The notes below the pieces were generated by a model that was given only the letters and a program-made list of their open reading frames with translations, had not been told where the DNA came from and searched no databases. Of a DNA stretch of 64,000 bases, positions 14,801 through 55,344 are shown piece after piece. Each line of letters begins with the position of its first letter. Position 1 is the first letter of the stretch. Made by a program: the position numbers and the translations under genes. Origin of the DNA: Panopea generosa (lineage: Eukaryota > Mollusca > Bivalvia > Adapedonta > Hiatellidae); contig CM055900.1 in NCBI GenBank assembly GCA_029582155.1, positions 40,345,236 to 40,409,235 of the forward strand, given 5' to 3'.

Positions 14801-17800
14801 AAGTTCTGACAAATCAAGGGGCTGGGTTATATAAGGGTTCTGTATGGGGACTATTTTTGTTTTACAGATGAATGGTATGAAAATTTCAAGTATTTCCTTT
14901 TCATTGCTATTAAGTTTTTGTTCAGTATAGGTGTGGTGGGGATATTTACCCATAAGATGTTAGGAAGACCCCCAAAGAGGGTAATTATTGTGAAATTTCA
15001 AAAAGTGCTCTGGCCACTATGAGTCAGTAGAGCATCCTCGGGCCCTCTTGTTTGATGACTTCTTAAAAAAAATGTGTTTTTTTCATCCAACATGGTCCTA
15101 AGGGAACATGGCATTATTCTTTGCATTAATTTTTTGCTGACAACATCACAGTTATTTAAACATTAATAGTACCGTATATATGACTATGTACATGTAGATG
15201 TTTCTTTACTGAGATTTGTTGTTAAAATTAGATTTATTATTTTGTAAATACAAAAGAAATGAGAAAGGGAACATTTAAGATTCATTTGAGACTAATTTCA
15301 TTTAAAGGGAAAAATGTGCTATAAATGTCTTAAAAAATAAAAAATTTGTAAAATGAATAAAAAGCAAGTCATTATTGTAAATTGACATAACCTGAATCTT
15401 TTTGGTATATCAAATCCTTCAAAACGTGACAAAATCAATGTTTCAATAGAAGTTGAAACGAAATCCCCATTCTAAAATTAGACGGCACTTAAAAACTACT
15501 TGACCACCTTCACATCATCATTTGGACTCTTTTTTAAAATAAATAAATTTTACAATGTGTAAATCAATATGACGGAATCGAAATGAAAACACGTGACTCA
15601 TTTAATATGTTATAATTTACAATTTTAAGCGGGAAATCTGGGAAATGTTAGCATAGCCCAAGTTAAAGATCTTGATATACTCCCTTTATATGATAGTTTC
15701 TAGTCATTGTAAGAGATCTGTTTTTTATGTGGACTATTCGTAGAAATTGGCGGCTATTGTACTCGCCTTGGGGTCGGCATTGGTTTTTAAGGTTAAAGTT
15801 TTTTATCAGGTAACATAATTATATAAGATACATATTGTCTTTGTGTTTCGGTTCGGTGACTTTTCACAGAGTTATGGCCCTTTTATTCTGTCTTATCAAA
15901 CTCTTGTCCGCACTATTTCTGTACAATCCTATGTTGGATTTTTATGAAACATGCTAAGATGCATCATTACCAAATGCAGATGCCCATATTGTCTATGGGA
16001 TTGGTTCGATGTTTTTTCACGAAGTTATGGCCCTTATATTGAGTCTGTGACCAAATTATTGTCCGCTATTTCTCTACAACCCAATGTTTGAATTTTGTGA
16101 AACTTGCTAGGATGCATCATTACCAAGTGCAGATGGGCATATTGTCTTTGTGTTCCGGTTTGATGATTTTTCACGGCGTTATGGCCCTTTGAATATGTCT
16201 GTGACCAAATTCTTGTCCGCGCTATTTCTCTACAACCCCATGGTGGAATTTTATAAAACTTGCTTGGATGCATCATTAAGTTTGAAAGACAAATGTAACA
16301 AATAACAAATGCTGATTTAAATAATATTACGGCAATACAAGCCATCCATTCACTTTGTTGTTTTCAAAAAATCATAACTGTTGACAACGAAAATAAAAAG
16401 TGTTGGTGAATTATTTTGCTATTTCCTTTTTAACAGACAAGCAATAATTATAGCTTAATTTTACCAAACCAGAGATTTAATTGTCTTCCATTTGGTACTT
16501 ATTTCCTAAAAAGCTGTTGTTTTAAAACAGCATCGAAATATTCAAGCGTGCTGTCCCTCCTCTTGTTTATGTTATAGCTTTACTTTCACTGCTAAACGTA
16601 ATGTAGTTACCTTTTGTATAAAAAATGTATTCTTGTATTGTATGATAAAACTTGTATAATTTTATGCTCAAATTGTCAATAAAAGCTGTGATATGTTATA
16701 TTTATATAAAACCATATCATGTTTATTTAAAAAACTATATTTATATAAAACTGCATGTACAAAAGAGATGTATATTTTCCAGGTGCATTGATTGGATTGA
16801 TACTTAAGATCTTCAAGTTTGGTAACTGGAGTGTAAGTGCAGAAATTTTAACTTTTTTTTTGCGAAAAGCTTTACTGAGCAATTTGGTGTCTACATGTCT
16901 TCTTTTCTTTTTTTCTTAAAGGGTTGATCACAATGTTCCATAGGTTGTATTTGTGTTGTTTGTTATCATTAGTCCAATATGGACACTGTTACTAAAAATA
17001 GACTGGTAAATGTTAAAACAGCATCTCCCCAGAAAGCCTTTATCAAAGTACACTTCATTTGCATGATCCTTGTGTCAACTTCCCTCAATTCTGTTTTTTT
17101 AACCCCCTATTATTAGGGTGACATATAGAAATCGCAGTGTCCATACATCCTTCCTTCCAATATTTCGTGTTTGGACTGTTACTTTGTCATGCATAGATGG
17201 ATTTTATAAATACTTGCCACAACTTAATACCCTGACTCTGACATTCAAGGTCAAGGTCACACTTTAACTTTGTTTGACAACACTTTCAATCTGTTTGAGA
17301 TTTCGTGTCCGGTCTGTAACTTTGTTACATTGTGTATCTAGTCTGAAACATCAGTCCATTTCTCTTGATAATCATGGATACATTGCTACCTATTACAATA
17401 GTATTGCCATCGTTGAATTTTACAGTTTTGTGATAAGGGATTATTGGACATAAAATGTATACTTATAGCTTGTTTGAATACATACTAACATCAATGATTG
17501 ATAATCTAGCTATTGATGTATAATACTATGGATATTTTAGCCATTGTCTCCCTGGAAACATAATCAGTGATAATTTATAAAGCCCTGTAGATGTACTTAC
17601 AAGATTATAATATATAATTATGCTGTCTTCCATTGCAGAAAGAAGAAGCATTTCCACCAACAATATTTTTTATTGTTCTTCTCCCTCCAATCATCTTCGA
17701 GTCTGGATACAATTTACACAAGGTAGGTTACATTTTACCCTCCAGTCATCTTCGAGTCTGTCTACAATTTACACAAGGTACGTTAGTATACAATTTACAC

Positions 17801-20800
17801 AAGGTACGTTACATTTTACCCTTCATTCATCTTCGAGTCTGGATACAATTTGCACAAGGTACGTTATGTTTTACCCTCCAATCATCTTCGAGTCTGGATA
17901 CACTTTGCACAAGGTATGTAACATTTTACCCTCCATTAATCTTCAAATCTTGATACAATTTACACAAGTTATGTTACATTTTACCCTCCAATCACCTTCA
18001 AGTCTGGGTACAATTTACACAAGGTACATAACATTTTACCCGCCATTCAACTTTGAGCCTGGATACAATTTACAAAAGGTATGTTACGTTTTATCCTCCA
18101 TTCGTTTTCGAGTCTGTATACAATTTACACAAGATACGTTACGTTTTACCCTCCATTCATTGAGTCTGGATACAACTTGCACAAGGTACGTTACGTTTTA
18201 CTCTCCAATCATCTTCGAGGCTTGATACAATTTGCACAAGGTATGTTATGTTTTACCCTCCAATCATCTTCAAGTCTGGATACACTTTGCACAAGGTATG
18301 TTATGTTTAACCCTCCATTAATCTTCAAGTCTTGATACAATTTACACAAGGTACATTATGTTTTACCCTCCATTAATCTTCAAGTCTGGGTACAATTTAC
18401 ACAAGGTATGTGACATTTTACCCTCCATTCAACTTCGAACCTGGATACAATTTACACAAGGTACGTAACGTTTTACCCTCCAATCATCTTCGAGTCTTGG
18501 TACAATTTACACATGTTACATAACGTTTTATACTCCAATCATCTTTTGAGTTTGGATACAATTTACACAAGGTACGTTACATTTAACCCTCCAATCATCT
18601 TCGAGTCTGGATACAATTTACACAAGGTATGTTACATTTTACCCTCCAATCATCTTCGAGTCTGGGTACAATTTACACAAGGTACGTTATGTTTTACCCT
18701 CCAATCAGCTTTGAGTGTGGATAGAATTTAAACAAGGTGTGTTACGTTTTACCCTCCAATCATCTTCAAGTCTGGGTACAATTTACACAAGGTACGTAAT
18801 GTTTTACCCTCCAATCAACTTTGAGTCTGGATAGAATTTAAACAAGGTACTTTACGTTTTACCCTCCAATCATCTTCGAGTCTGGGTACAATTTACACAA
18901 GGGACGTTATGTTTAACTCTCCAATCAACTTTGAGTCTGGATATAATTTAAACAAGGTACGTTACGTTTTACCCTCCAATCATCTTCGAGTCTGGGTACA
19001 GTTTACACAAGGGACGTAATGTTTTACCCTCCAATCAACTTTGAGTCTGGATAGAATTTAAACAAGATATGGTACGTTTTACCCTCCAATTATTTTCGAG
19101 TCTGGGTACAATTTACACAAGGTACGTTACGTTTAACTCTCCAAACAACTTTGAGTCTGGATAGAATTTAAACAAGATATGGTACGTTTTACCCTCCAAT
19201 TATCTTCGAGTCTGGGTACAATTTACACAAGGTACGTTACGTTTTACCCTCCAATCATCTTCGAGTCTTGATACAACTTAAACAAGGTATGTTACAATCT
19301 TTTTTTTTAAGAAAATTTTGGATGAAAGTCTAGTTATTAATTAATAATGGCCTACTGAAGTGTAATATGTCCTACACACATACTTAATTGAACTAAATAT
19401 TGTCAAAGTCTAGCTGGGTCAGTGGTTTTTCACGGAATTTCCATGGAAATCGGAAGGTCAATTACAGTAATGATATTTCTCGCATATCTGTTATTTTACA
19501 GGTGAGGCATATTTTGTATCTCATTCAAGAGATAAGTTATATGATTTGACATCTTAAAGTTATCATGATATGAAGATGATGATAAACTAAATTAAAATAA
19601 TTGTTCCGTATGTTGTTGTATGGCTTAGTTTCAGCCAAAACAGTTATATATTGGGATAGAATTTTCTATTCAAACCTCAAATCACTGATAGAGTTATGAA
19701 ATCTTAAATTCTGTATAAAATTGTTATAAGCTGATAATGGTTTATGAAATCTAAGATTGCAGGAGTGATGACTCTCGGATCCAATTTTGACACATCGACT
19801 GATTCATATTTATACATAGTATGATATGAAAATCAACATTTCAAACTTATTTGCCAGCAATGGACTCCGACGATGGTGGTTTGAAAATTGTTTTTAAATA
19901 TTTGCAGGGCAACTTTTTCCAAAACATTGGTACGATATTGGTGTTTGCGATCATTGGTACAGCTATATCTGCAATGGTGGTCGGTGGAGGAATATATCTC
20001 TTAGGACAGGTACAATATTCTCATTGGTTGTTTGTGGTTTAGAGGAACATATTGGTACCACAGCTATTGTATTATGTATAAGCTCTGGGAAATAGGCATG
20101 ATTTACATGAAGCTGGGAACTACGTGGTTTGTGATCTAGAGGAACCACTTTAATGCGGCCAGCGGCCAGTCTATTTCATCCCAAACAATGCCCGTAAGCG
20201 GTCAGCAGCCACATAAGTAGCGGCCGACTCTTAGCAGTTAGTGGTCACACCTTTTGGCTGGCCGCCTTTCCGATCATATTGTATAATCCAGCTTCTGCTT
20301 CTGTTATGAAAACACACCACTTTACCCAGACATATATACGGTCTAATAAGCAAATAGAATGTTATCTAGGCTGGGTACATGACTGTTGCTTAAAGCGTGT
20401 GTTTTTACGGTTGTTTTATTTAGATTATGTCGGGTGTAAACACATTGGAAGCAAATTTCATTGAGGTGTTTATGCACAGTTATCGAACTGGGTAAGATCA
20501 AAAAGAAAATTACAATTGGTCTTGTTTAAATTATAATTGAATTAAATTTTATCGGCTATGAAAGCGGGTGCAAATGCAATGGAAAAACGTTATTTTTTCA
20601 TATCATAAATTAATGCGATTGACTCGATGCATATTATACACAATATCTGCTGTGAAAAGAAAGTGTTGAATTTGGATGAATTAAACGTCCGAATTTTTCG
20701 GAAAATGTGTCTATAAAATACAGAATCATAATTTGCCCTAACGTAACCGCAAGATGTATTATGTATAAGCTCTGGGAAATAGGCATGTTTTACATGTAGC

Positions 20801-35800: not shown

Positions 35801-38800
35801 TATCAACTTTATCAGGTTCGTCACGAAAATAAAAAAAAGACTTGTCAGAGCCTCGTCCTGGTTTTTTTTCTAAGCCTCACCTGATAAAGTTGATAATATC
35901 AGACACTGACATCGTGTTCTTTATATATCTGCATGCTGCAAGTATGAAACAGAATACCCCATGGGGTATGTGTGCAGAACAATAATTTCATTCCTTTTTA
36001 TCTCGCTGGGACAAAGTCCAAGGAGAGCTATTGCCATGACGGCGGTGGCGGCGGCGTCATCAACGTTGGCGTCTGTAGACACCCAGGTTAAACTTTTGCG
36101 TTTAAGTTTAAGATATATATGCAACCACTCATTGGATGTGAATGAAACTTTGCATGTGTGTTCACTATCATCAATGGAACACACACAGACAAGAACCATA
36201 ACTCTGGATTGCATTTTTGCACATTTATGGCGCTTTTTGAACTTAGACACCCAGAGGTGAGCTTTGTTGTCTTCTGACAACTCTTGTCTGTAAAGGGGAA
36301 TAACTAATAATTAAATGGTTAAACGGCATCATATAACTTCATGGTCAAATATGACAAATATTGTAACAAATGGTATATTTCAATCAGCTTTTATAGATAT
36401 ATTACAAAAATTCATAAAGAAATATTTTAATGTATTTTTAGTAATTTTTTGTAACATTTTCAAAGCTAGTATAGCTTCATTAAAATATTAATACTTTTTG
36501 AAATATGAATTTCTAGATAATTATATTTGGAGATGATGGTTTCATCTGGTTATGTGTTATGTTTAATTTTTTGAGTAAAACTGACTTTCAACATTGCTGT
36601 GATACTTTTTGTAATGGACATATTGATTGACTGGTGTTAGTATTACAATCATTTTTTATGATCTATAGTCAGAATATTATTTTGATGTTTTTGAAAACAG
36701 ACAATACTCTAATTTAAGACGCTGCAAGCATGCATTTGGTAAACTGGAATGACTTTAAATGTCAATAAAACTGGGAATCTGAAAAAAAAAGAGTTGTATA
36801 TTACATAGTAATAGCTATAACATTTGCCCTGAGAATAGAAAGTTTTGATTTTGTTTCAGGTCTGCGTGGAGCCATTGCGTTTGCTCTGAGTTTACATCTA
36901 GAGTTTAACACTGCGGAGAAGCGTTATGTGATAGTCACTACAACTCTCATCATTGTTTTGTTCACCATATTATTCCTCGGGGGGTCCACCATGCCCATGA
37001 TGAAAGTAAGTCTTAACCAAAAACAGTAAGAAAAATGTCAGATTTTGTTGTGAAACTATTATTAAAAAAGTCAGTTTTATCAAACTAAGTGTATATAGTA
37101 GAGATTCATTGGTAAGTGTGTCTATAGAAGGTTCGTTGGTAAGTGTGTATAGTGAAGGACAGTTGGTAAGTGTGTATAGTGGGGGTCTGTTGGTAAGTGT
37201 GTATAGTGGAGGTCCGGTGGTAAGTGTGTATATTGAAGGTTCATTGGTAAGTGTGTATAGTGAAGGACCGGTGGTAAGTTTAAAGTGGAGGTCTGGTGGT
37301 AAGTGTGTATAGTGGTGATCCAGTGGTAAGTGTGTATAGTGAAAGTCTGGTGGTAAGTGTGTATAGTGGATGTCCGGTGGTAAATGTGTACTGAAGGTTC
37401 ATTGTTTAGTGTGTATAATGGAGGTCCAATGGTAAATGTGTATAGTGGAGGTCTGGTGGTAAGTGTGTTTAGTGAAGGTTCATTGGAAGGTGTGTATAGT
37501 GGAGGTCTGGTGGTAAGTGTATAGTGATGGTTCATTTGTAAGTGTTTATAGTGAAGGACTGGTGGTAAGTGTGTATAGTGGAGGTCTGGTGGTAAGTGTG
37601 TATAGTGGAGGTTCATTGGAAGGTGTGTATAGTGGAGGTCTGGTGGTAAGTGTGTTTAGTGAAGGTTCATTGGAAGGTGTGTATAGTGGAGGTCCAGTGG
37701 TAAGTGTGTATAGTGAATGCTCATTGGTAAGTGTGTAGAGTGAAGGACTGGTGGTAAGTGTGTATAGTGGATGTCTGGTGGTAAGTGTGTATAGTGGAGG
37801 TTCAGCGGTAAGTGTATAGTGAAGGTTCATTGGTAAGTGTGTATAGTGAAAGGCCCATTGTAAATGTGTATAGTGGAGGTCTGATGGTAAGTGTGTATAG
37901 TGGTAATTCATTGGTAAGTGTGTATAGTGGAAGTTTTGTGGTAATTGTGTAAAGTAGAGGTTCATAGGTAAGTGTGTATAGTGGTAAGTTGTAAGGTCTG
38001 GTGGTAAGTGTGTTAAGTGGAAATTCATTGGTATGTGTATAGTGGAGGTTTGTTGGTAAGTGTATATAGTAGATGTTCATTGGTAAGTGTGTATAGTGGT
38101 GATCCCATGGTAAGTGTGTATAGTGGAGGTCTGGTGGTAAGTGTGTATAGTGAAGGTTCATTGGTAAGTATGTATAGTGGAGGTCCAGTAGTAAGTGTGT
38201 ATAGTGAAGGTTCATTGGTAGGTGTGTATAGTGAAGGTTCAATGGTAAGTGTGTATAGTTGAGGTCCGGTGGTAAGTGTATATAGGGAAGGTTCACTGGT
38301 AAGTGTGTATAGTGAAGGTTCATTGGTAAGTGTGTATAGTGGAGATCTGGTGACAAGTGTGTATAGTGGAGGTCTGGTGACAAGTGTGTATAGTGGAGGT
38401 CCGGTGGTAAGTGTGTATAGTGAAAGTTTGGTGTTAAGTGTATATAGTGGAGGTCCACCAGAGCCTCATTAAACTGTTAGTCTGTACTTTTGAAGAGTTC
38501 TTATACATGTATTGTATACTATGTAATGAATAAGATATGCAAAATATGTCAAAATATGACATGTCATAACAGGGTAATATTAACTAAACAAACAAGATAT
38601 AATAATGTTGTGTTCTGATATAAACAGCTTCTTCTTTTATCCAGTTACTCAATGCAGAGAAAAAGAAAAAGAAGAAGAAAAAATCTGAGAGAGAAATATC
38701 ACTCAGTAAAACAAAAGAAATGGTATAAAACCCTTCAATACTGTCCTTGTAATGCATGTACTACCATGATATAGTATTTAATCAATCATATACTGATTCT

Positions 38801-41800
38801 TGGTTTGATGGTTATATTATAAAAATCAACTAGTACTAAGTAGCACCTGGTATTGCCTATCAATTCATTTAAACTTTTTAAATAAATTTTAAATAAAACA
38901 ATAACTAAGATATTGAATTTACATCAGCCAGTATGGTCACCAAAGGTGACTTTTCATATGTGTTGAAAAACAAAAAAAGGTTTTTGTGAAAATGTCTCCT
39001 TTGTTGTCCAACACTTAAAATGTATAAAAAATTAACTTGGTAATTTTAGCTCTTTTATTTCATATCAATATATTAATAATCTTCCCAATACACCACCTGG
39101 TTTGTCAGAATTGTGATTTGAGCACAAATCAGATTGTTATAAGTAGAGGGAATATAGATCCTTTAGGGCAGTTTGTACTACATTCATTCATTTATAAAAA
39201 CTCTTTTACAGAAACTGTTCAAAGACTATAAATACTAGTAGTTTATTTCAGATATACATTTTCATTTGATTTTTAAAAGTAAAACATATATGTTTAGTTC
39301 TAAAAATTCTTAAGATTTGTATTTAATTTTATAGGTGCTTATTAATGAAAATAAAATGGTTTTGTGAAAACTTTGATATGCCCTACCAGTCAATGAAACT
39401 GTTGTATTTTTACAGGGCGATACGGTTGACTCAGAACATCTGTCTGAGATTACAGAAAGTGAAAATGAAGTCAGTTTTGCCAAGCCAACACTTAAAGGTT
39501 TTGTAAAAATAGACGCGAGATACTTGAAACCATTTCTAACAAGAAGATTTACTCAGCAGGTTTGTAACATTTAATCTGTTTAACAATAACACGAGGTTTT
39601 AAAATATTTTTGTAACTTTGAAGATTACTGTTACAAAACAATTATCAACAGAAATTGTTTATTCATTAATAAGTATGCAATTTAAATCAGATAACAAATA
39701 TTTCAGTTAATTATAAAAAACAAATACTTTATTCCGCAATGTAGGAACTCTGAAGTTAGCCATTTTTTACAATTCAAGGGCCATTAACTTTGATAAGATT
39801 TAGTTTATACTAATTTTTCTTAGCTTGATTGCAATGAAAGCTCAGAGCTTATATGAACTGCTGCTTCCTGGGTAGAACCAGTACTGAGTGTTGTTTTATG
39901 AGGCATTGGGTCAAGCTGAGGATCGAACCCGCAACCTCTGGCGTGAGCGGCCAATACTATATCTGTTATACTACAGCCTCTGCTTGAATTTATCAGATTT
40001 GGCAAGTAACTGTCTGAGATATTATGGTAATGTACTTATTAGTTTGTTTGGTGATAATTAATTAATGAAAACCTCAAAGATCTTCGACTAACACAAACAT
40101 TTTTCATTCTCACTCAAACTTACAGCATAATTACTAGATACCATTAGCTTTTGGGTAATTCTTTTTGAGCAGGCCTGATACTTGAGTTTTTGAAAATCTC
40201 ATATTCTCCTTTACCACTGGTGAGCAATTTTGGGCAATACTGAACCCTTTGTTTACTAATTTGATTACCGTAATACAGAAATAGAATAAGTACATGTACA
40301 TATTTTTATGAATGCAACGAATATGTTGTGAATAAGGTATTTATATTGTTAAGTAGAATCATCTGCTAATGTTTACATATATAAGAATTACATGGTTAGT
40401 AGCTTAGAATCTCAGCTGTATTTTGGTAAGTGAAAGAAATATTATAATTTATTTCTTTATGTCACAAGCCAAAAATACAGTTGATATTCTAAGCTACTCA
40501 CCATGCAATTTATTTATCATGAAATACTATTTGTTTCCACCACTTTTCATTTAAAAGGTGAAAATAAATTTATATTTTGTCATTGCATTTCCTCTTTAAC
40601 AAAATATGGAAGTTAGTGGATGAAGTTTGATATATGTATTTAATGTTTTTAGTGTAATATATATTTTTTACCAAATGATTTCAATCTCAAACTCTAAATC
40701 TATAAAGAGATGAGGAGGAAAAGTGTTTCCGGCTTCTAGCATAAAACAGCTTGGAAAATATTATGCTAGTAGCAGGCAGCTGTATTATGTTAATAAAATT
40801 TAAAAGTTGCATGATAAATTTGCATACATGAAAAACGTTTGATTTTTTATGACATATGTATTGTATTTCTCTGAAGAGCAAAAACAATTGAGTGATAACT
40901 CTAACTTGAATTATATTTGTAACATTTAAGCATTTGGAATACATATTGTAGCAAGATAATTTATTCACATATATTGTAATAGGTCTACCCGGGGGAAAAT
41001 GTGATGTGTATAATTTGCAATAAATGGTTTTGCAGTTGAGATAAGAAATAAGATTTGATTAAACAAGCTTTGATTATTTATCTTGGTGGAATTGTTTCAC
41101 TACCAGGATGTGATTACACAAGCTTTGATTATTTATCTTGGTGGAATTGTTTCACTTCCAGGATGTGATTACACAAGCTTTGATTATTTATCTTGGTGGA
41201 ATTGTTTCACTTCCAGGATGTGATTAAACAAGCTTTGATTATTTATCTTGGTGGAATTGTTTCACTTCCAGGATGTGATTACACAAGCTTTGATTATCTA
41301 TCTTGGTGGAATTGTTTCACTTCCAGGATGTGATTAAACAAGCTTTGATTATTTATCTTGGTGGAATTGTTTCACTTCCAGGATGTGATTACATAAGCTT
41401 TGATTATTTATCTTGGTGGAATTGTTTCACTTCCAGGATGCGATTAAACAAGCTTTGATTATTTATCTTGGTGGAATTGTTTCACTTCCTGGATGTTATT
41501 AAACAAGCTTTGACTATTTATCTAGGTGGAATTGTTTCACTTCCAGGATGTGATTAAACAAGCTTTGACTATTTATCTTGGTGGAATTGTTTCACTTCCA
41601 GGATGCGATTAAACAAGCTTTGACTATTTATCTTGATGGAATTGTTTCACTTCCATGATGTGATTGTTTATCTTGATGTAAATGTTTCACTTCCAGGATG
41701 TGATTAAACAAGCTTTGACTATTTATCTTGGTGGAATAGTTTCACCTCCAGGATGTGAATATTTATCTTGGTGGAATTGTTTCACTTCCAGGATGTGATT

Positions 41801-42957
41801 AAACAAGCTTTGACTATTTATCTTGGTGGAATAGTTTCACTTCCAGAATGTGATTATTAACTTGATGTAATTGTTTCACTTCCAGGATGTGATTATTTAT
41901 CTAGGTGGAATTGTTTCACTTCCAGAATGTGATTATTTATCTTGATGTAATTGTTTCACTTCCTGGATGTTATTAAACAAGCTTTGACTATTTATCTTGG
42001 TGGAATTGTTTCACTTCCAGGATGTGATTAAACAAGCTTTGACTATTTATCTTGGTGGAATTGTTTCACTTCCAGGATGCGATTAAACAAGCTTTGACTA
42101 TTTATCTTGATGGAATTGTTTCACTTCCATGATGTGATTGTTTATCTTGATGTAAATGTTTCACTTCCAGGATGTGATTAAACAAGCTTTGACTATTTAT
42201 CTTGGTGGAATAGTTTCACCTCCAGGATGTGAATATTTATCTTGGTGGAATTGTTTCACTTCCAGGATGTGATTAAACAAGCTTTGACTATTTATCTTGG
42301 TGGAATTGTTTCACTTCCAGGATGTGATTAAACAAGCTTTGACTATTTATCTTGGTGGAATTGTTTCACTTCCAGGATGTGATTAAACAAGCTTTGACTA
42401 TTTATCTTGGTGGAATAGTTTCACTTCCAGAATGTGATTATTAACTTGATGTAATTGTTTCACTTCCAGGATGTGATTATTTATCTAGGTGGAATTGTTT
42501 CACTTCCAGAATGTGATTATTTATCTTGATGTAATTGTTTCACTTCCATGATGTGATTATTTATCTTGGTGGAATTGTTTCACTTCCAGAATGTGATTAT
42601 TTATCTTGATGTAATTGTTTCACTTCCAGGATGTGATTATTTATCTTGGTGGAATTGTTTCACTTCCAGAATGTGATTATTTATCTTGATGTAATTGTTT
42701 CACTTCCAGGATGTGATTATTTATCTTGGTGGAGTTGTTTCACTTCCAGAATGTGATTATTTATCTTGATGTAATTGTTTCACTTCCAGGATGTTCGAGA
42801 TGCCAAGACACAGATGGCGCACCTAACTAAGAAGTGGTACGATGACGTACGTGCGGCACCATCAGAGTCTGAGGATGAAGAGATGGAGGAGGAGACGTTA
42901 TTCATCAGCTCACGATCAACTGAAAATCATTCCCAGAACGAGCCATTGTTACATTAG
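8676..42957 (+). CDS. SLC9A8: Na+/H+ exchanger NHE8 (SLC9A8 orthologue), whole gene, first exon not found
   Basis: An integral membrane cation/proton exchanger of the CPA1/NHE family. Known NHE8 proteins act in Golgi, endosomal and apical membranes, exchanging luminal or external Na+ (or K+) for H+. The joined coding sequence is 8676-8827, 11895-11975, 16783-16832, 17639-17722, 19908-20009, 23580-23758, 26101-26239, 28641-28746, 29140-29256, one of 29981-30063 or 33876-33958, 35333-35444, 36860-37005, 38645-38722, 39416-39559, 42790-42957. Every junction is in phase and the total is 579 residues plus one split codon. Diagnostic motifs in order: [11 protein letters not shown] (about 65-78), [19 protein letters not shown] (about 104-122), [23 protein letters not shown] (about 205-211), [24 protein letters not shown] (about 402-413), [11 protein letters not shown]. 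These match NHE8 rather than NHE1-5 or NHE6/7/9. The N-terminal start exon is missing: an in-frame stop lies at 8653 and no Met precedes the first TM. Confidence 0.95.
9236..9420 (+). mobile_element. tRNA-headed SINE-like element in intron
   Basis: GTGTAGTGGTTAGAGTGTTG resembles an A box with the following D-arm. About 35 bases later, GCAGGTTTGATCCCCAGTG resembles a B box. A body follows with ACTGGTCCTACCGAGGAAG (compare the ACTGGTTCTA motif of the elements at 7868 and 39826), trailing into TTGAGTTAAACTAAAT. No TSD was identified. It is probably an old SINE rather than a tRNA gene, because stems do not pair well. Confidence 0.6.
9528..11845 (+). mobile_element. Composite interspersed element with about 635-bp internal tandem units
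   Basis: Begins TTTTTAGCTCAAATGGCTAA (9521) with GCTTATGCGATGGCGCGTTG. It then has four starts of the block CCACTRGGCCAATTARACTG near 9603, 10232, 10873 and 11503, about 632-641 apart. Each block carries ATTCAAGATGG, poly-T, TGACCCYGCCCCGAG, AAGGGGTCAGGAGGGGCCCC and GTAAGGGGACTT. The end is GGCCACTTTGAGTCAGAAGA then CCTCAGGCCCTCTTGGGCCTCTTGTT. The same start and end bracket the element at 13065, and the end alone occurs at 54668. No transposase was found, so the class is unknown. Confidence 0.8.
11895..11975 (+). CDS. SLC9A8: SLC9A8 visible exon 2: TM1 end and start of TM2
   Basis: Acceptor TATTTTAG, donor GTGAGT at 11976. Encodes the split Ala, then [20 protein letters not shown] and IAVVLV. 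This aligns with human CIILVHLLIRYRLHFLPESVAVVSLG: the end of the first helix, a short basic/aromatic linker, and the LPES motif opening the second helix. It ends on the first base of a Gly codon completed by the next exon. Confidence 0.9.
11982..13060. other. Intron sequence, mostly unremarkable
   Basis: No exon or clear mobile element. A short direct duplication, CAGTAACATATGTTGGGTGT, occurs at about 12918 and 12947. The rest is AT-rich single-copy-looking DNA. Confidence 0.5.
13065..15055 (+). mobile_element. Second copy of the composite element, more diverged
   Basis: Opens with TTTTTAGCCAAAGGCCAGAA and GCTTATGCGATGGTGCGTTG, as at 9528. It has one recognisable 640-bp-type block (CCACTAGGCCAATTAACCTC near 13160). 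Several shorter subunits follow, each marked by CCCTGTAAGGGGACTT-like sequence near 13687, 14010, 14333, 14655 and 14837, with AACAACCAGTCAGTCAAA-like lines. It ends in GTGCTCTGGCCACTATGAGT and GGGCCCTCTTG. Internal array structure differs between copies, suggesting expansion and contraction after insertion. Confidence 0.78.
15056..15829. other. AT-rich intron DNA, nothing recognised
   Basis: No coding segment, RNA gene or clear repeat seen. Confidence 0.4.
15830..16300. repeat. Three diverged units of about 154 bp
   Basis: GTTATGGCCC recurs near 15871, 16024 and 16179. Each occurrence is followed by a TCTTGTCCGC... type segment, CTACAACCC, a TGAAACWTGC run and GATGCATCATTA, with CATATTGTCT between. 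It looks like an old interspersed repeat with internal tandem structure. Confidence 0.65.
16783..16832 (+). CDS. SLC9A8: SLC9A8 visible exon 3: short exon, TM2 end
   Basis: A 50-nt exon. Acceptor ATTTTCCAG, donor GTAAGT at 16833. Encodes the completed Gly, then [16 protein letters not shown], matching human GILMGAVIKIIEFKKLANWK. It ends in phase 0. Confidence 0.88.
17100..17360 (+). mobile_element. Fragment of a ~165-bp-unit interspersed repeat
   Basis: Contains CCCCCTATTATTAGGGTGAC, then GTCATGCATAGATGGATTTT and GGTCAAGGTCACACTTTAAC. The same series appears at 21415-22140 and 34018-34830. It is a truncated copy with no coding capacity. Confidence 0.65.
17639..17722 (+). CDS. SLC9A8: SLC9A8 visible exon 4: conserved amiloride-site/TM motif
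   Basis: Acceptor CCATTGCAG, donor GTAGGT at 17723, phase 0 on both sides. Encodes KEEAFPPT then [19 protein letters not shown], the most conserved NHE segment; in other NHEs this FF-LPPI region affects amiloride sensitivity. The last 40 nt of this exon together with the donor site are the seed of the downstream minisatellite. The array copy at 18587-18626 is identical to 17683-17722. Confidence 0.95.
17683..19290 (+). repeat. Donor-junction minisatellite: exon end + 5' splice site, about 29 copies of ~54 bp
   Basis: Each unit reads CCCTCCAATCATCTTCGAG, then TCTGGATACAATTTACACAA, then G|GTACGT or G|GTATGT, then TACRTTTTA. The first unit overlaps the real exon; the rest lie in the intron. Most copies keep AAG|GTACGT or AAG|GTATGT, so the intron holds more than 20 near-perfect decoy donors; a few have GGGACGT and have lost the GT. 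From about 18690 the units alternate between an ATCATCTTCGAG...TTTACACAAG type and an ATCAACTTTGAG...TTTAAACAAG type, giving a higher-order dimer of about 109 bp. One shortened unit lies at 17785-17803. Confidence 0.95.
19291..19907. other. Intron remainder, nothing recognised
   Basis: AT-rich sequence between the minisatellite and the next exon. It ends in a normal TTTTTAAATATTTGCAG acceptor. Confidence 0.5.
19908..20009 (+). CDS. SLC9A8: SLC9A8 visible exon 5: TM segment with GTAISA...GGGIYLLG
   Basis: Acceptor TATTTGCAG, donor GTACAA at 20010, phase 0. Encodes [20 protein letters not shown] then [14 protein letters not shown], nearly superimposable on human [34 protein letters not shown]. 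It forms one transmembrane helix with Gly-rich packing. Confidence 0.93.
20030..21100 (+). repeat. Tandem repeat of about 93 bp, first copy separated by a ~600-bp insertion
   Basis: Units carry GGAACATRTTGGTACCACAG, TATTATGTATAAGCTCTGGG, ACATGTAGCTGGGAAC and GTGGTTTGTGATCT. Copy 1 spans 20030-20150, then 20152-20755 is unrelated sequence, then copies follow at about 20757, 20828, 20922 and 21022. Copy 1 starts about 20 bases after the exon 5 donor. The intervening block begins AATGCGGCCAGCGGCCAG and has no coding potential that I recognise. Confidence 0.8.
21415..22140 (+). mobile_element. Interspersed repeat with ~165-bp internal units
   Basis: Starts ATGTCCCCCCAAAATTTTTG, GTGGCATATAGTAATTGCAA, then a GTCTGTCTATCCGTCCGTCC simple tract. 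GGTCAAGGTCACAC-like motifs follow near 21603, 21770, 21931 and 22101, each preceded by a TGACATGTCACATGTAA-type line and followed by GTTTGTTTGA. The copy at 34018 has the same organisation. No open frame is present. Confidence 0.75.
22141..23166. other. Intron DNA, nothing recognised
   Basis: AT-rich with a short (TA)n tract near 22512. No supportable feature. Confidence 0.4.
23167..23526 (+). mobile_element. TTAA-flanked MITE (piggyBac-like), copy 1, with 25-bp internal minisatellite
   Basis: Bounded by TTAA at 23163-23166 and 23527-23530. Ends are CCCTCTACTTCATA and TATGGAGTAAAGGG. Just inside the left end are eight full 25-bp units of GCCTTTGGACACCTCTAATA plus TAGAC (23186-23390). A unique core with AACAGTGCAGGAAGTGTTCA follows. 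TTAA duplication with CCC...GGG termini is the signature of piggyBac-group elements. No transposase is present. Confidence 0.85.
23580..23758 (+). CDS. SLC9A8: SLC9A8 visible exon 6: ion-binding core
   Basis: Acceptor CCATATTTTCAG, donor GTAAAT at 23759. Encodes [59 protein letters not shown]. It holds the AVDP motif and the FGESILND motif. The Asn-Asp pair is the expected cation/proton-binding site of electroneutral NHEs. The exon ends after two bases of a Met codon (AT|G). Confidence 0.95.
23867..24782. mobile_element. TIR element (same family as 8203-8384) split by ~780-bp insertion
   Basis: The left half, CACAGTCAAAACTGTG...CACCTCTATTGAAC and ...AAGGCCACT, ends near 23957. The right half, CCCTTGACTGACTGCTTAAA then TTTTACTGTA, resumes near 24740. 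In the intact copy at 8203 these halves are separated by only about ten bases. The inserted block is AT-rich and has an internal duplication (TTAAACATTGTCATTATG near 24030 and 24223). No coding sequence is seen. Confidence 0.7.
24783..25330. other. Intron DNA, nothing recognised
   Basis: AT-rich with no supportable exon or repeat. Confidence 0.4.
25334..25443. repeat. Inverted-repeat (hairpin) element
   Basis: ATGAGTATGTATTGTGGTTA near 25336 is mirrored by CACCACAATACATATTATGA near 25418, giving arms of about 24 bases with a loop of about 55 bases. Likely a small foldback element. Confidence 0.6.
25550..25855 (+). repeat. ~56-bp tandem repeat, about 5-6 copies
   Basis: Units are poly-T, TTAATTGCCATCTTGAATTA, TCGTTGAATACTTGAGTTCT and TTTCC, recurring near 25560, 25618, 25670, 25727, 25783 and 25838. 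It sits about 250 bases before the exon at 26101. Confidence 0.85.
26101..26239 (+). CDS. SLC9A8: SLC9A8 visible exon 7: loop and following TM helix; U12 donor at its end
   Basis: Acceptor TCTATTTCAG. Encodes the completed Met, [40 protein letters not shown] and GLVSAL, matching human NTAEGLTRKNMSDVSGWQTFLQALDYFLKMFFGSAALG and what follows. It ends CTT in phase 0. The donor that follows is GTATCCTT, the minor-spliceosome consensus rather than GTRAGT. A closer-to-consensus GTAACA 14 bases on is out of phase. Confidence 0.92.
26272..26780 (-). mobile_element. TTAA-flanked MITE, copy 2, inverted, with 14 minisatellite units
   Basis: TTAA at 26268-26271 and 26781-26784; ends CCCTTTACTCCATAGATATG and ...GAAGTAAAGGG. 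Relative to copy 1 it is reversed: the hairpin core (GTGCAGGAAGAGTTCAGATT and its complement) comes first, then about 14 units of AGGTGTCCAAAGGCGTCTAT plus ATTAG. It begins only 32 bases after the U12 donor. Confidence 0.88.
27100..28085 (+). mobile_element. Cluster of decayed tRNA-headed SINE-like elements
   Basis: At 27548, CCCAATTAGCTCAGTTGGTT resembles a tRNA D-arm with A box, with B-box-like GTGAGTTGGAATCCACACC at 27597. A related piece lies near 27118-27190 (AAGGGTTGTGAGTTTGAATA, CAGTGATGATTGAT). The body, GTACTGGTTAACCTTYCAGG, CAGTGGTTAGGTTAAYTGAT and GTTAGCCCTCGATGGCATAA, occurs twice, at about 27735 and 27972. These are probably SINE relics with a duplicated 3' part. Confidence 0.6.
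28086..28640. other. U12 intron remainder
   Basis: AT-rich; nothing beyond the branch site and acceptor described for the U12 intron. Confidence 0.4.
28641..28746 (+). CDS. SLC9A8: SLC9A8 visible exon 8
   Basis: Follows the U12 acceptor ACTTTAG. Encodes [20 protein letters not shown] and [15 protein letters not shown], then the first base of Gly; donor GTAAAT at 28747. Matches human [35 protein letters not shown]. The LRKTPSLE motif is NHE8-specific in my recollection of the family and is a strong orthology marker. Confidence 0.94.
28795..29030 (+). mobile_element. SINE-like relic
   Basis: CTGTGGTCATGTGGTCTAAG resembles a tRNA A-box region. The tail GTGTTGAAAATGGTGTTTAG resembles the tail of the element at 29605-29880 (AAGTGTTGAAAATGTACTAA). 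Boundaries uncertain; no TSD found. Confidence 0.45.
29140..29256 (+). CDS. SLC9A8: SLC9A8 visible exon 9
   Basis: Acceptor ACATTACAG, donor GTATGT at 29257. Encodes the completed Gly, [38 protein letters not shown], then the first base of Glu. It aligns with human [40 protein letters not shown]. Its last G starts the Glu codon that is completed by either of the two alternative exons that follow. Confidence 0.95.
29605..29880 (+). mobile_element. SINE-like relic
   Basis: A degenerate head contains GAGGTTGTAGGTTTGAGCCC (B-box-like). A body and tail CTGTAAAGTGTTGAAAATGT follow, then ACTAAACCCC. No TSD recognised. Confidence 0.45.
29981..30063 (+). CDS. SLC9A8: SLC9A8 alternative exon 10a (mutually exclusive with 33876-33958)
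   Basis: 83 nt, acceptor TCTTTTTCAG, donor GTAAGT at 30064. With the preceding G it encodes [20 protein letters not shown] then PALIIWAI, one membrane helix and its exit. Human has ETCVFAFLGLSIFSFPHKFEISFVIWCI at this position. The exon has the same length and phase as 33876-33958 and shares 18 of 28 residues with it. Because 83 is not a multiple of 3, skipping both or including both breaks the frame. The conserved ETC-F Glu corresponds to the SETLIF glutamate of other NHEs. Confidence 0.9.
30064..32540. other. Spacer between alternative exons, first part
   Basis: AT-rich. A short direct duplication, GGAGATTATTTCAGTTTGCA, occurs at about 31421 and 31456. A possible decayed tRNA-like piece on the minus strand lies near 31985-32060. 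No exon was recognised. Confidence 0.45.
32545..32757 (+). mobile_element. TTAA-flanked MITE, copy 3, short form
   Basis: TTAA at 32541-32544 and 32758-32761; ends CCCTTTACTCCATA and TATGGAGTAAAGGG, perfect 14-bp inverted repeats. Only one 25-bp minisatellite unit. The hairpin core GAAAACAGTGCAGGAAGTGT/...TTCCTGCACTGTTTTC is intact. Lies between the two alternative exons. Confidence 0.88.
33205..33330 (+). repeat. 40-bp tandem repeat, three copies
   Basis: GGTTATACAGCTGCTTGAAC with TTGGTGGAGTTCAAAGTCCA recurs at about 33219, 33259 and 33299. Located about 550 bases before alternative exon 10b. Confidence 0.85.
33331..33875. other. Spacer before alternative exon 10b
   Basis: Contains a (TA)n tract at about 33536-33553. 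Otherwise featureless, ending in TTTATGATTGCAG. Confidence 0.4.
33876..33958 (+). CDS. SLC9A8: SLC9A8 alternative exon 10b (mutually exclusive with 29981-30063)
   Basis: 83 nt, acceptor ATGATTGCAG, donor GTAAGT at 33959. With the preceding G it encodes [20 protein letters not shown] then PAFVIWSI. Differences from exon 10a are conservative and hydrophobic (M/V, L/I, L/M, I/F, L/F, V/I, V/F, L/F, I/V, A/S), so both should form a working helix with different packing. If 10a and 10b were both included, 10b would be read in another frame and reach TAA within itself. If neither were used, the next exon would be shifted and soon stop. Confidence 0.9.
34018..34830 (+). mobile_element. Interspersed repeat with ~165-bp internal units (third copy)
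   Basis: Opens TTATGCCCCCACCCCAAAAG, a (TCCG/TCCA)n tract, then ATTTCGTGTCTGGCCTGTAA. GGTCAAGG-CACACTT motifs follow near 34194, 34380, 34502 and 34669. Same family as 17100 and 21415. Confidence 0.72.
34831..35332. other. Intron DNA, nothing recognised
   Basis: AT-rich, ending in GTTTTATTTCAG before the next exon. Confidence 0.4.
35333..35444 (+). CDS. SLC9A8: SLC9A8 visible exon 11, followed by a GC donor
   Basis: Acceptor TTTATTTCAG. Encodes [37 protein letters not shown], then the first base of Gly. Human: [38 protein letters not shown]. The only phase-compatible end is AGTG|GCAAGT, a GC-AG intron with otherwise ideal donor bases. Confidence 0.93.
35760..35925. mobile_element. Hairpin MITE-like element in the GC-AG intron
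   Basis: The left arm contains AGTGTCTAATATTATCAACT and TTATCAGG. The right arm contains CCTGATAAAGTTGATAATAT and CAGACACT. Weaker symmetry extends outward (AATACCATG / CATCGTGTTC). The stem is about 33 bases. Additional TTTATCAGGC pieces lie just upstream (35625-35675). Confidence 0.72.
35985..36300 (+). repeat. Interspersed repeat fragment with GC-rich head
   Basis: AAGGAGAGCTATTGCCATGA, a (CGG)-rich run, CATCAACGTTGGCGTCTG, then TTAAACTTTTGCGTTTAAG and a less conserved tail. Much more GC-rich than the surrounding intron. I believe this type of block is dispersed in bivalve genomes, but that rests on memory. Confidence 0.5.
36860..37005 (+). CDS. SLC9A8: SLC9A8 visible exon 12: [12 protein letters not shown] helix and last TM
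   Basis: Donor GTAAGT at 37006. Encodes the completed Gly, [40 protein letters not shown] and GSTMPMMK. Matches human GLRGAIPYALSLHLDLEPMEKRQLIGTTTIVIVLFTILLLGGSTMPLIRL. The Arg in LRGAI is conserved in the family core. It ends at the start of the cytosolic tail, phase 0. Confidence 0.95.
37095..38460 (+). repeat. 27-bp minisatellite carrying a perfect 5' splice-site core, about 50 copies
   Basis: Unit: GGTAAGTGTGTATAGTGGAG plus GTCTGGT or GTTCATT. Nearly every unit contains GGTAAGT, an ideal U1-complementary donor core. The array starts about 90 bases after the authentic donor (AAA|GTAAGT at 37006). Two main end variants (GTCTGGT and GTTCATT) alternate irregularly. Because 27 is divisible by 3, long spurious open frames appear on both strands with 9-residue periodicity. 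Confidence 0.95.
38645..38722 (+). CDS. SLC9A8: SLC9A8 visible exon 13: polylysine cytosolic segment
   Basis: Acceptor TTTTATCCAG, donor GTATAA at 38723. Encodes [17 protein letters not shown] then ISLSKTKEM. The eight-lysine run replaces a shorter basic stretch (HRRNKKD) in human; SLSKTKEM corresponds to NLSKTEKM. Phase 0 on both sides (78 nt), so a skipped form would stay in frame. Confidence 0.88.
38723..39415. other. Intron, nothing recognised
   Basis: AT-rich, ending in GTATTTTTACAG. Confidence 0.45.
39416..39559 (+). CDS. SLC9A8: SLC9A8 visible exon 14: cytosolic tail
   Basis: Donor GTTTGT at 39560. Encodes [40 protein letters not shown] and LTRRFTQQ. Human: GNTVESEHLSELTEEEYEAHYIRRQDLKGFVWLDAKYLNPFFTRRLTQE. 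144 nt, phase 0. Confidence 0.94.
39826..39985 (-). mobile_element. tRNA-headed SINE-like element, minus strand
   Basis: On the minus strand: GAGGCTGTAGTATAACAGAT as a degenerate A-box region, GCGGGTTCGATCCTCAGC as a good B box, then ACTGGTTCTACCCAGGAAGC. Resembles the elements at 7868 and 9236. No clear TSD. Confidence 0.62.
39986..40386. other. Intron DNA, nothing recognised
   Basis: No supportable feature. Confidence 0.4.
40387..40512. mobile_element. Palindromic MITE-like hairpin
   Basis: The left arm TTACATGGTTAGTAGCTTAG through CAGCTGTATTTTGG is mirrored by CCAAAAATACAGTTGATATT through CTAAGCTACTCACCATGCAA. Arms are about 38 bases with few mismatches and a loop of about 45 bases. Confidence 0.75.
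40513..41035. other. Intron DNA before the acceptor array
   Basis: AT-rich; nothing recognised. Confidence 0.4.
41040..42794 (+). repeat. Acceptor-junction minisatellite: 3' splice site + exon start, about 36 copies (55 or 40 bp units)
   Basis: Full units: GATTAAACAAGCTTTGATTA, TTTATCTTGGTGGAATTGTT, TCACTTCCAG|GATGT. Short units lack AAACAAGCTTTGATTA and are about 40 bp. The final copy is the authentic acceptor: TTGTTTCACTTCCAG|GATGT, followed by TCGAGATGCC of the last exon. The intron therefore presents some 35 decoy acceptors with the same polypyrimidine tract and the same first five exon bases. Long-unit blocks at about 41470-41880 and 41950-42460 are near duplicates (about 480-590 bp apart), indicating higher-order duplication. 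Towards the exon, short units with TCTTGATGTAATTG and TCTTGGTGGAATTG alternate. Confidence 0.95.
42790..42957 (+). CDS. SLC9A8: SLC9A8 last coding exon: cytosolic C-terminus and stop
   Basis: Acceptor TTTCACTTCCAG. Encodes [40 protein letters not shown], then [15 protein letters not shown] and TAG at 42955-42957. Human ends with DLHHGRIQMKTLTNKWYEEVRQGPSGSEDDEQELL, so KWY(D/E)(D/E)VR and the acidic Ser-rich cluster are conserved. The mollusc-type tail is longer and ends in an acidic dileucine-like NEPLLH, which could act in sorting (inference). Confidence 0.95.
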   Translation, partial: DVRDAKTQMAHLTKKWYDDVRAAPSESEDEEMEEETLFISSRSTENHSQNEPLLH

Positions 42958-44475
42958 TGATTATTTGCTCCTGAATGTAGTCCTGTTACAGCGCTTTCAG
43001 CCAGTTTATGTTTACTGGAATATTACAATGCAAGACAACATGTGAAACATGATCATTACCGTAAAAGGAAGAAAGCTTCAGCAGTCATCATCTTTAAATT
43101 AAAATTCTGTGTAGCCAGTAGGTTTGGTGTCACACCGAAGTTCACAGACTTATCCCTCAATAAGGGTTTCTTGATAAAGGTCATGGTCAGCTGAGGGAGG
43201 TCGATATTTTTCTGCTCAGTCTATGCTCCTGTTTTACTGCCTTCGTCAACATGTCACAGAGAGTGGAGACTTGGGGTGAAAGACGATTTGTGTTAATCAA
43301 CAGTGACCTTTATCTCTGTTCTATGTGGATGCGTTGATGCACCTGTACTATCATTTACCTGATAATACTGTTTATTAGATAGGAGAAACATTTTGTCATA
43401 CCATTTATTGAAATATGTGTGCAACCAGTTATTTTTTGGATCTGATTTTAGTGGTTTTGAAAGCATTACTTAGTCACTGATATGCTTTGTTTTGTTGAAT
43501 GCACTACAGAGTAACTGAGATAATGTGGCTTTGTTGAATGCACTACAGAGTCACTGAGATAATGTGGCTTTGTTGAATGCATTACAGAGTCACTGAGATA
43601 ATGTGGCTTTGTTGAATGTGTTGTAGAGTCACTGAGATAATGTGGCTTTGTTGAATGTGTTACAGTCACTGAGATAATATTGCTTTGTTGAATGCATTAC
43701 AGAGTCACTGAAATAATGTGACTTTGTTGAATGCATTACAGAGTCACTGAGATAATGTGGCTTTGTTGAATGTGTTGTAGAGTCACTGAGATAATATTGC
43801 TTTGTTGAATGCATTACAGAGTCACTGAAATGATGTGACTTTGTTGAATGCATTACAGAGTCACTGAGATAATGTGGCTTTGTTGAATGTGTTGTAGAGT
43901 CACTGAGATAATGTGGCTTTGTTGAATGCGTTACAGAGTCACTGAGATAATATTGCTTTGTTGAATGCATTACAGAGTCACTGAGATAATGTGGCTTTGT
44001 TGAATGTGTTACAGAGTCACTGAGATAATGTGGCTTTGTTGAATGCATTACAGAGTCACTGAAATGATGTGACTTTGTTGAATGCATTACAGAGTCACTG
44101 AGATAATGTGGCTTTGTTGAATGTGTTACAGAGTCACTGAGATAATGTGGCTTTGTTGAATGCGTTACAGAGTCACTGAGATAATATTGCTTTGTTGAAT
44201 GCATTACAGTCACTGAGATAATGTGACTTTGTTGAACGGGTTACAGAGTCACTGAGATAATGTGGCTTTGTTAAATGTGTTACAGAGTCACTGAAATGAT
44301 GTGACTTTGTTGAATGCATTACAGAGTCACTGAGATAGTGTGGCTTTGTTGAATGTGTTGTAGAGTCACTGAGATAATGTGGGTTTGTTAAATGTGTAGA
44401 GTCTCCTAGAAGCTTTAGTTTTATTAAAAGACATTTTAAAGACACTCAAATGTTGAGGCCTTTAACAAAAATAAA
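42958..44475 (+). other. Probable 3' UTR of SLC9A8
   Basis: Follows the stop codon with no further splice-bounded coding sequence. Candidate AATAAA signals lie at 44470-44475 and 44886-44891; which is used cannot be told from sequence. If either is used, the 39-bp minisatellite at 43480-44400 is part of the mRNA. Confidence 0.45.
43480..44400 (+). repeat. 39-bp minisatellite just after the stop codon, about 24 copies
   Basis: Unit: GAGTCACTGAGATAATGTGG plus CTTTGTTGAATGCATTACA. Variants alternate GCATTACA, GTGTTACA, GTGTTGTA, and ATAATGTGG, ATAATATTG, ATGATGTGA, with blocks repeated in order (higher-order structure near 43680-44210). 39 is a multiple of 3, which explains long spurious minus-strand frames. 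Confidence 0.95.
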
Positions 44476-49496: not shown

Positions 49497-49729
49497 CCCT
49501 TTACTTCATATAGATGCCTTTTGACACCTCTAATATAGAAGGCTTTGGACACCTAATATTGAAGGCTTTTGAATTATTGGGTGAATTATGTTTATATAAA
49601 CTGACAGAGTGGAAAACAGTGCAGGAAGTGTTCAGATTGCTCGTTATGAGCAATCTGAACTCTTCCTGCACTGTTTTCAAAGGCCTTCTGTGATTTGTGC
49701 GGGAAAACGCGTATCTATGGAGTAAAGGG
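49497..49729 (+). mobile_element. TTAA-flanked MITE, copy 5
   Basis: TTAA at 49493-49496 and 49730-49733; ends CCCTTTACTTCATA and TATGGAGTAAAGGG. About two 25-bp units, then a near-perfect hairpin core: GGAAAACAGTGCAGGAAGTG, TTCAGATTGCTCGTTA and its complement GAGCAATCTGAACTCTTCCT, GCACTGTTTTC. Confidence 0.88.
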
Positions 49730-53700: not shown

Positions 53701-54672
53701 GGTTAGACTGAACTATAGACTAAGGAGTCTCTTTACTGTTGCCTACATGTCATAACTACACTACCTGGTTAGACTGCACTATAGACTTAGGAATCCTCGT
53801 TATTGGTGCTGTCATGTCAAAACTGCACCACCTGGTTAGACTGCACTATAGACTAATAAGTCCATCTTATTGATGCCATTGTGTCATAACTGCACCTCCT
53901 GGTTAGACTGCACTATAGACTAAGGAGTCCATCTTATTGATGCCGTTATGTCATAATTGCAACTCCTGGTAAGACTACACTTTAGATTAAGGAGTGTCTT
54001 TATTGATGCCATCATGTCGTAACTGCACCTCCTGGTTAGACTGCACTATAGACTAAGGAGTCCATCTTATTGATGCCATTGTGTCATAAAAGCACCACCT
54101 GGTTAGACTGCACTATAGACTAAGGAAACTTCGTTATTGATGGCGTCATGTCATAAATGCACCTCCTGGTTAGACTGCACCAATGACTAAAGAGTCCACC
54201 TTATTGATGGCGTCATGTCATAACTGCACCTCTTGGTTAGACTGCACCAAAGACTTAGGAGTCAACCTTATTGATGGGGTCATGTTATAACTGTACCTCC
54301 TGGTTAGACTGCACCAAAGACTAAGGAGTCCACCTTATTGATGGCGTCATGTCATAACTGCACCTCCTGGTTAGACTGCACCAAAGACTAAGAAGTCCAC
54401 GTTATTGGTACTATCATGTCATAACTGTACCTCCTGGTTAGATTGCACTATAGACTAAGGAGTCCATCTTATTGGTGCCGTCATGTCATAACAGTACCTC
54501 CTGGTTAGACTTCACTATAGACTAAGGAGTCTCTTTATTTATGCCATAGTTCATAACTGCACCTCCAGGTTAGACTGCACTATAGACTAAGGAATCTTCT
54601 TTATTGGTGCCGTCGTGTCATAATTGCACCTCCTGGTTAGACTGCACCAAAGACTAAGGAGTCCACCTTATT
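50776..54672 (+). repeat. 66-bp tandem array, about 59 copies
   Basis: Unit: CATAACTGCACCTCCTGGTT, AGACTGCACTATAGACTAAG, GAGTCCATCTTATTGGTGCC and a variable GTCTAT/ATCCTGTCATACATGTAA link. From about 51390 to 52480 most units are the TTCACTATAGACTAAAGAGT type and highly uniform, while the outer thirds (especially 52800-54670) are more diverged. That is the usual pattern of recent amplification in the middle. The right edge breaks mid-unit into the composite-element fragment at 54668. Confidence 0.95.
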
Positions 54673-54816: not shown

Positions 54817-55344
54817 AAATTACAAATTTATTAACTTGTCCCATCAAATATTTATAATATAGATATCTGCACAGTTTAAGAGGCAGAGAAAAAAAGGCAA
54901 CAATCCAGTAAGGCCTATGTCAGTACTTACCATATATGTATTGTTTGTATTATGTTTTATTTAATTGTTTTATTTTATTTTACTGCTCACTGTTGTTTAT
55001 TTTGTTGTATGATGTGCAACCTTTTCATGTGATAATTATTGGGAATCAAACAAAAAAATAAATAATTAAAGGTATAATTGGTGTTGTTTTGTTGTCATTG
55101 TACAAGTGACGGTCACTGCAAATACAATCCAAACATCTTTGTTAGTTTGATTTTGTACATGAAGAGTTGGCCTGAAATCTTCCTTACTTTTGGCATCATA
55201 ATTCTTATAATCAATATTTATTGGTACATCGTAAAATGCCAATTATGAACTTCTATCCAAGAACTAACCAAACCTTCAAATGCAAAACACAAAAATGGAG
55301 TAAATCTGGTTTTCAGTTATCTGTCTATTTGTAGCCTGTATCAT
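54817..55344. other. AT-rich spacer between arrays
   Basis: About 530 bases with no feature recognised. Confidence 0.45.

Follow-up and report, generated by a model that had tools for sequence, protein, structure and literature searches.

The last intron of a sodium/hydrogen exchanger-like gene ends in a tandem array in which its own 3′ splice site recurs 36 times, and, judged by reading frame and homology, the last of these copies, with the exon starting at 42790, is the authentic acceptor. A second array in the same gene repeats a 5′ splice site 30 times. We consider it likely that both arrays are neutral minisatellites born at splice junctions, of the kind known from amphioxus as 'mirages', and that they are tolerated because the copy nearest the exon is the one spliced. 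The window is the whole 64,000-nucleotide stretch of DNA that was analysed; positions count from its first base, and a slash marks an exon–intron boundary.

A putative SLC9A8-like host gene

The exons that matter most for the arrays are the following.

17639..17722, forward strand: exon upstream of the donor array, junction AAG/GTAGGT, with its last approximately 38 nt and the donor repeated (by eye)
19908..20009, forward strand: exon after the donor array, in frame with the predicted authentic first donor
36860..37005, forward strand: exon upstream of a 27-bp array, peptide ending ...GGSTMPMMK
39416..39559, forward strand: penultimate exon, donor CAG/GTTTGT, intron phase 0
42790..42957, forward strand: last coding exon, protein ending ...EPLLH, then a stop

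A model covering 17639 to 42957 splices twelve exons at the first repeat of the donor array and at the final repeat of the acceptor array, and yields a single open frame of 485 codons followed by a stop. The exons were placed by tblastn with an approximate human NHE8 sequence as query, to which the window exons align up to and including the C-terminus; a short exon around human residues 98–115 (approximate numbering) was not found in the window. This single frame and the aligned C-terminus uphold the gene model and the terminal acceptor of the original prediction. A real last exon elsewhere was considered and rejected, as frame and C-terminus both fit an exon start at 42790.

The joined exons match PF00999 (Na_H_Exchanger, the criterion for SLC9) at an E-value of 2.6e-62 and TIGR00840, a profile labelled sodium/hydrogen exchanger 3, at 1.5e-110, over its cut-off. 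One exon alone gave PDB matches that include chains of NHE1, NHE9, NHE6 and NHE3; of three exons searched singly, one gave a sub-threshold Pfam match, and the penultimate and last exons matched nothing. The gene thus appears to be an SLC9A8 (NHE8)-like sodium/hydrogen exchanger, with the NHE8 subfamily taken from the alignment to that approximate query.

Exons 29981–30063 and 33876–33958 resemble each other and have the same length and phase. The frame holds with either one, so mutually exclusive use is probable for this pair, which belongs to the membrane domain of the transporter. The open frame allows three different ends for the exon that begins at 26101; 26239 was preferred, as it fits the length of the alignment to the approximate NHE8 protein. 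The intron following exon 35333–35444 appears to begin with GC (GTTCAGTG/GCAAGT, 35444–35445), as in a GC–AG intron.

Anatomy of the acceptor array

41052..42789, forward strand: acceptor array, end of the last intron plus the first five exon bases, 36 copies, the final copy predicted to be authentic

Tandem Repeats Finder resolves the array into an upstream part with a 55-bp unit and a downstream part with a 40/80-bp unit, at scores of up to 1787 that rule out a chance repeat. Counted with at most one mismatch and with copy number as assembled, the core GTTTCACTTCCAG/GATGT occurs 36 times, with starts from 41094 to 42777 and spacings of 55, 40 or 39 bp, matching the predicted amplification of about 36-fold with some 35 decoys ahead of the authentic site. 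The copied segment of the 40-bp units comprises about 35 intron bases and the first five exon bases. After GATGT the exon continues TCGAGA, and 29 of the 35 decoys continue GATTAA, GATTAT or GATTAC. Higher-order units of 80 bp and 474 bp are also apparent, and a 401-bp stretch of the array is present again 474 bp downstream with 396 of 401 positions identical. When the array was used as a query against this assembly, in a search that passes over very frequent words, it matched only at its own place, so that a single haplotype is represented.

Every unit had been described as identical to the authentic acceptor, a claim that is true of part of the array. The exact 20-mer TTGTTTCACTTCCAG/GATGT is found in 16 of the 36 copies (15 of the 35 decoys and the authentic site), and identity to the authentic acceptor over 45 nt, from −40 to +5, extends to two of the 35 decoys, those at −80 and −160. 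The AG is retained in 31 of 36 copies (30 decoys and the authentic site) and lost in five decoys, two of which now read TG and three AT. With these numbers, the description of the array as dozens of equal sites does not hold.

Consequences of decoy use and choice of the acceptor

Use of any of the 35 decoy acceptors leads to a stop after 4–43 codons, and none rejoins the normal C-terminus. This extends to all copies the phase calls made earlier for the nearest three, which are correct: out of phase at −40 and −80, in phase but with a stop at −120. Because any decoy acceptor merely lengthens the last exon, the stop lies in the last exon, so that by the established rule nonsense-mediated decay (NMD) triggered by exon junctions is not expected.

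Comparison of the authentic acceptor with the −80 decoy bears on how the two could be told apart. Upstream of the junction there are no mismatches in the nearest 55 nt and four (at 56, 161, 223 and 241) in the nearest 265 nt. With two decoys identical over 45 nt and one nearly so over 265 nt, upstream signals cannot decide, and selection would have to rest on exon sequence downstream, on exon definition or on position, in agreement with the earlier proposal that downstream information or position governs it. Downstream, purine-rich 6-mers number nine in 165 nt of the last exon versus none in the 1,730-nt array, and the GC content is 0.48 in the first 60 nt of the last exon versus a mean of 0.33 in the 60 nt following 34 of the 35 decoys. 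The purine-rich last exon is therefore a plausible enhancer-like cue for the authentic acceptor.

If decoys were used appreciably, the gene would produce C-terminally truncated exchangers with new tails of 4–43 amino acids that escape NMD, and the array would be a noisy or regulated source of isoforms. The intact AG of 30 decoys, the two 45-nt matches and the geometry of the intron, in which copies closer to the donor are transcribed earlier, would be in keeping with such use. We nevertheless think it unlikely, as the C-terminus is kept by none of the 35, the enhancer-like 6-mers are absent from the array, and amphioxus mirages reportedly leave regular splicing undisturbed in the available text of the two studies concerned (PMC3087553, PMC3902484).

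A donor array and other repeats in the window

17723..19295, forward strand: donor array, exon end plus 5′ splice site, 30 copies (counted up to 19287), mostly 55 bp, first copy predicted to be authentic
37086..38457, forward strand: 27-bp intron array, 38 GTAAGT, 33 of them in the form GGTAAGTG, starting about 80 bp past the predicted authentic donor at 37006

In its sequence the donor array is the mirror image of the acceptor array, with the exon-adjacent first copy as the predicted authentic site. The original prediction mentioned neither this array nor similar ones elsewhere in the genome, nor the amphioxus precedent. By eye, its unit consists of about 38 exon nt and about 17 intron nt. 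The GT is kept in 23 of 30 copies, mostly as AAG/GTACGT or GTATGT, and lost in seven. Reading frame does not exclude the use of one decoy donor: the site at +81, one of the 29 extra donors and with its GT kept, is in frame and open and would insert 27 amino acids. Use of the extra donors at +55 and +136 shifts the frame, yet no stop appears before the next exon ends, and the remaining 26 reach a stop by codon 123.

The GTAAGT copies of the 27-bp array resemble donors and may be regarded as look-alikes of them; inspection by eye did not show this array to descend from the donor of its own exon (37006).

Further repeats lie elsewhere in the window. A 39-bp array of 24 copies at 43457–44394, shortly past the stop codon and thus probably within or immediately past the 3′ UTR, has a consensus unit with an acceptor-like ATTACAG/AG. 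Very long minisatellites occupy 50776–54672, 55335–63203, 63296–64000 and 1–2179, with units of 67, 52/156, 71 and 115 bp, respectively. Similar units of 23–25 bp (ATATAGACGCCTTTGGACACCTCTA and its reverse complement) occur at 23178–23391, 26432–26769 and 49508–49572, as if they belonged to a dispersed minisatellite unit.

Arrays at other exon ends of the genome

We surveyed 99 exon loci of the same genome from five Pfam families chosen for convenience (PF00069, 30 of 136 matches; PF00999, 12 of 12; PF00664, 30 of 57; PF00176, 20 of 57; PF00122, 7 of 12); the set includes an exon of the window gene itself (L039). Donor arrays with the coding copy first were found at seven exon ends, and an acceptor array at one.

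L044: donor array, 31-bp period, 31–33 copies, GT in 33/33
L050: donor array, 80 bp, 19 copies, reaching the locus end, GT in 19/19 (plus one stray site)
L051: donor array, 46 bp, 16 copies, GT in 16/16
L059: donor array, 42 bp, 4 copies, GT in 4/4
L070: donor array, about 48 bp, interrupted, 21 copies by loose match and 5 by the 20-mer rule, GT in 18/21 (read from the list)
L087: donor array, 51 bp, 4 copies, GT in 4/4
L104: donor array, 29 bp, 16 copies, reaching the locus end, GT in 15/16
L090: acceptor array at the exon start, 98 bp, 4–5 copies

L070 lies in the same cluster as L050, which it overlaps, and was detected only in a second, looser pass; the two together hold 33 sites, at least one of them stray. 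With loci clustered at 20 kb, six donor clusters and one acceptor cluster are found among 73, and the 30 kinase clusters in that total have none.

The background was estimated at 192,261 positions in the flanks of these loci, each over 150 bp away from the match, for arrays of three or more copies. An array has its first copy at 1.23% of these positions and its last at 1.33%, corresponding to 1.2 donor and 1.3 acceptor arrays expected per 99 loci. The single acceptor array is as expected, and the seven donor arrays are about 6-fold above expectation (binomial P = 2.4e-4), in a test made after the array matches were known, with borderline rows judged by eye and with loci that are not all independent (overlapping flanks enter twice) and with many match ends that do not coincide with an exon end. 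The difference between seven donors and one acceptor is not significant (two-sided binomial P = 0.07; 0.11 for eight versus two when the window is included).

Several rows were flagged by eye and left uncounted: L029, with three purine-rich copies 10–17 bp apart; L034, L066, L076, L093 and L103, which have AT-rich or irregular repeats or lie off the exon edge; and L007, with an array about 90 bp past the match end. L075 was likewise uncounted for its matched exon, the copies being 75–84 bp away. Counting every flagged row would increase donor and acceptor totals alike. Within L075, an ABC transporter locus, the stretch at about 560–900 (gene-oriented) is likely to be a donor array of the preceding exon (..SMSFKAILRQ/GTGAGT), also uncounted because it lies outside the matched exon.

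A general sense-strand bias of donor motifs in intron arrays was considered and rejected, as no bias is left apart from mirages. Arrays with the motif at 8/9 consensus number 12 sense versus 3 antisense of 80. Removal of the mirage loci known at that point leaves 7 versus 2 of 73 at 8/9, and 12 versus 14 at 7/9; once overlap duplicates and the L070 mirage are also taken out, two sense (L023 and L075) and three antisense (L007, L051 and L076) arrays remain, as read from the rows.

Proposed origin and tolerance of the arrays

Both window arrays conform to the structural definition of mirages. Their units span an exon–intron boundary of a real gene (five exon nt are included in the acceptor array and about 38 in the donor array, and both junctions give the open frame), and splice signals are present in many units, with AG in 31 of 36 acceptor copies and GT in 23 of 30 donor copies. 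In both, the exon-proximal copy is the one that the 12-exon open frame needs and hence the predicted authentic one, and arrays at other exon ends of the genome likewise have the coding copy next to the exon.

For the acceptor array, a segment of about 40 bp across the last intron–exon junction (about 35 nt of intron and 5 nt of exon) would have been duplicated in tandem, and the array would then have expanded and been partly homogenised by unequal exchange or slippage, with the 474-bp and 80-bp higher-order units as possible traces of later steps. It would be tolerated if splicing takes the copy adjoining the exon body, and the authentic acceptor might be picked through purine-rich exon sequence, through exon definition with the terminal exon, or by position. 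The arrays themselves are probably without function.

Two observations sit less easily with neutrality. Most decoys are intact, 30 of 35 with AG, and the apparent over-representation of donor arrays (7 of 99 loci against 1.2 expected) is not predicted by neutral birth anywhere in introns. A tentative extension, which we rate as possible but would not favour, is that minisatellites here arise preferentially at 5′ splice sites (7 of 99 loci, about 7%), with 3′ sites at the background rate and the 36-copy acceptor array a rare survivor; the cause might be mutation linked to U1 or nascent RNA that seeds repeats, or the retention of donor arrays that aid splicing or elongation.

Selection could also act on the arrays as such, with extra U1 or U2AF sites promoting transcription or curbing premature polyadenylation in long introns, in the manner of a telescripting-like role of U1 sites, and with the true site set by exon definition. 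Such selection would fit the roughly 6-fold donor excess in the 99-locus sample and the GT kept in most copies of the surveyed donor arrays; against it, the sample is small and convenience-chosen, acceptor arrays show no excess (1 versus 1.3 expected), and GT is lost in 7 of 30 copies of the window donor array, so that we hold it to be improbable. Finally, that the copy number or the whole array was produced by assembly, as a draft amphioxus mirage was aberrantly assembled according to the available text of PMC3087553, is highly improbable for an assembly of 1.47 Gb in 39 contigs, with units that differ in a structured manner (80- and 474-bp higher-order units) and with unrelated arrays of like design at other exon ends.

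For the donor array, where the predicted authentic copy also comes first in the transcript, a kinetic rule and an exon-definition rule lead to the same site; for the acceptor array the two rules conflict, and the last intron therefore tells more as a test. Work on splice-site choice commonly relies on minigenes that carry a handful of rival sites. The introns described here contain dozens of rivals by nature, and the window gene could separate first-come (kinetic) from exon-proximal (exon-definition) rules, with the donor array as the reverse situation.

Comparison with known systems

A human interferon-induced transcript, from a gene that we take to be IFI6 (6-16), reportedly contains a minisatellite with multiple splice donor sites, going by the title of a 1995 report by Turri, which is cited elsewhere for interference with splicing. 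As far as that title goes, the human minisatellite supplies donors, whereas the window finding is a repeated acceptor.

Internal tandem repeats at exon–intron boundaries in human segmental duplications alter splicing; in the available text they average 30-bp units in four copies and are tied to novel introns or alternative transcripts of recent paralogues (PMC2812944), whereas the window has long arrays beside the junctions of a conserved gene. An abalone TSSK1-like gene has a 27-bp intron minisatellite, for which the text seen does not state that it spans a junction (PMC6905558). The Caenorhabditis elegans repeat CeRep25B, near alternative exons in the part of PMC4039745 available, was considered as a parallel and set aside as a different thing. 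None of the literature matches listed concerned a junction-spanning array in a mollusc.

The closest counterparts are the amphioxus mirages, tandem repeats that span exon–intron boundaries in Adh3, globins, TnC and PGBD5 and occur at both 5′ and 3′ boundaries, reportedly without interfering with regular splicing (PMC3087553, PMC3902484). As described in the available text, they share with the window arrays the junction-spanning tandem repeats, the many copies with AG or GT and the two boundary types. They differ in size: BflGb6 has 3–6 units of 150–160 bp, BflGb9 a duplicate of 157 bp, PGBD5 2–7 units of 60 or 108 bp, and Adh3 units of 10–72 bp. The window arrays, described here from the sequence, have 36 and 30 units of about 40–55 bp, with both types in one gene, in a genome that looks spiralian rather than cephalochordate; splicing has been examined in amphioxus. 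Length differences between haplotypes or somatic cells are a further trait by which mirages are recognised. A candidate miR-1992 20-mer occurs once in this genome, and its reversed control is absent; MIR-1992 is described as specific to Spiralia (PMC6468455), which speaks against a lancelet. A COX1 search gave no match, and a bivalve mollusc would be a guess from repeat types. Arrays of this kind were already known, and what is new is their occurrence in a spiralian-looking genome, the 30–36 copies, the co-occurrence of donor and acceptor arrays within one gene and what appears to be an excess of donors. Should that excess extend to the whole genome, splice sites would be connected with the origin of tandem repeats and also with the intron gain by junction duplication that has been proposed for mirages in the available text of PMC3087553.
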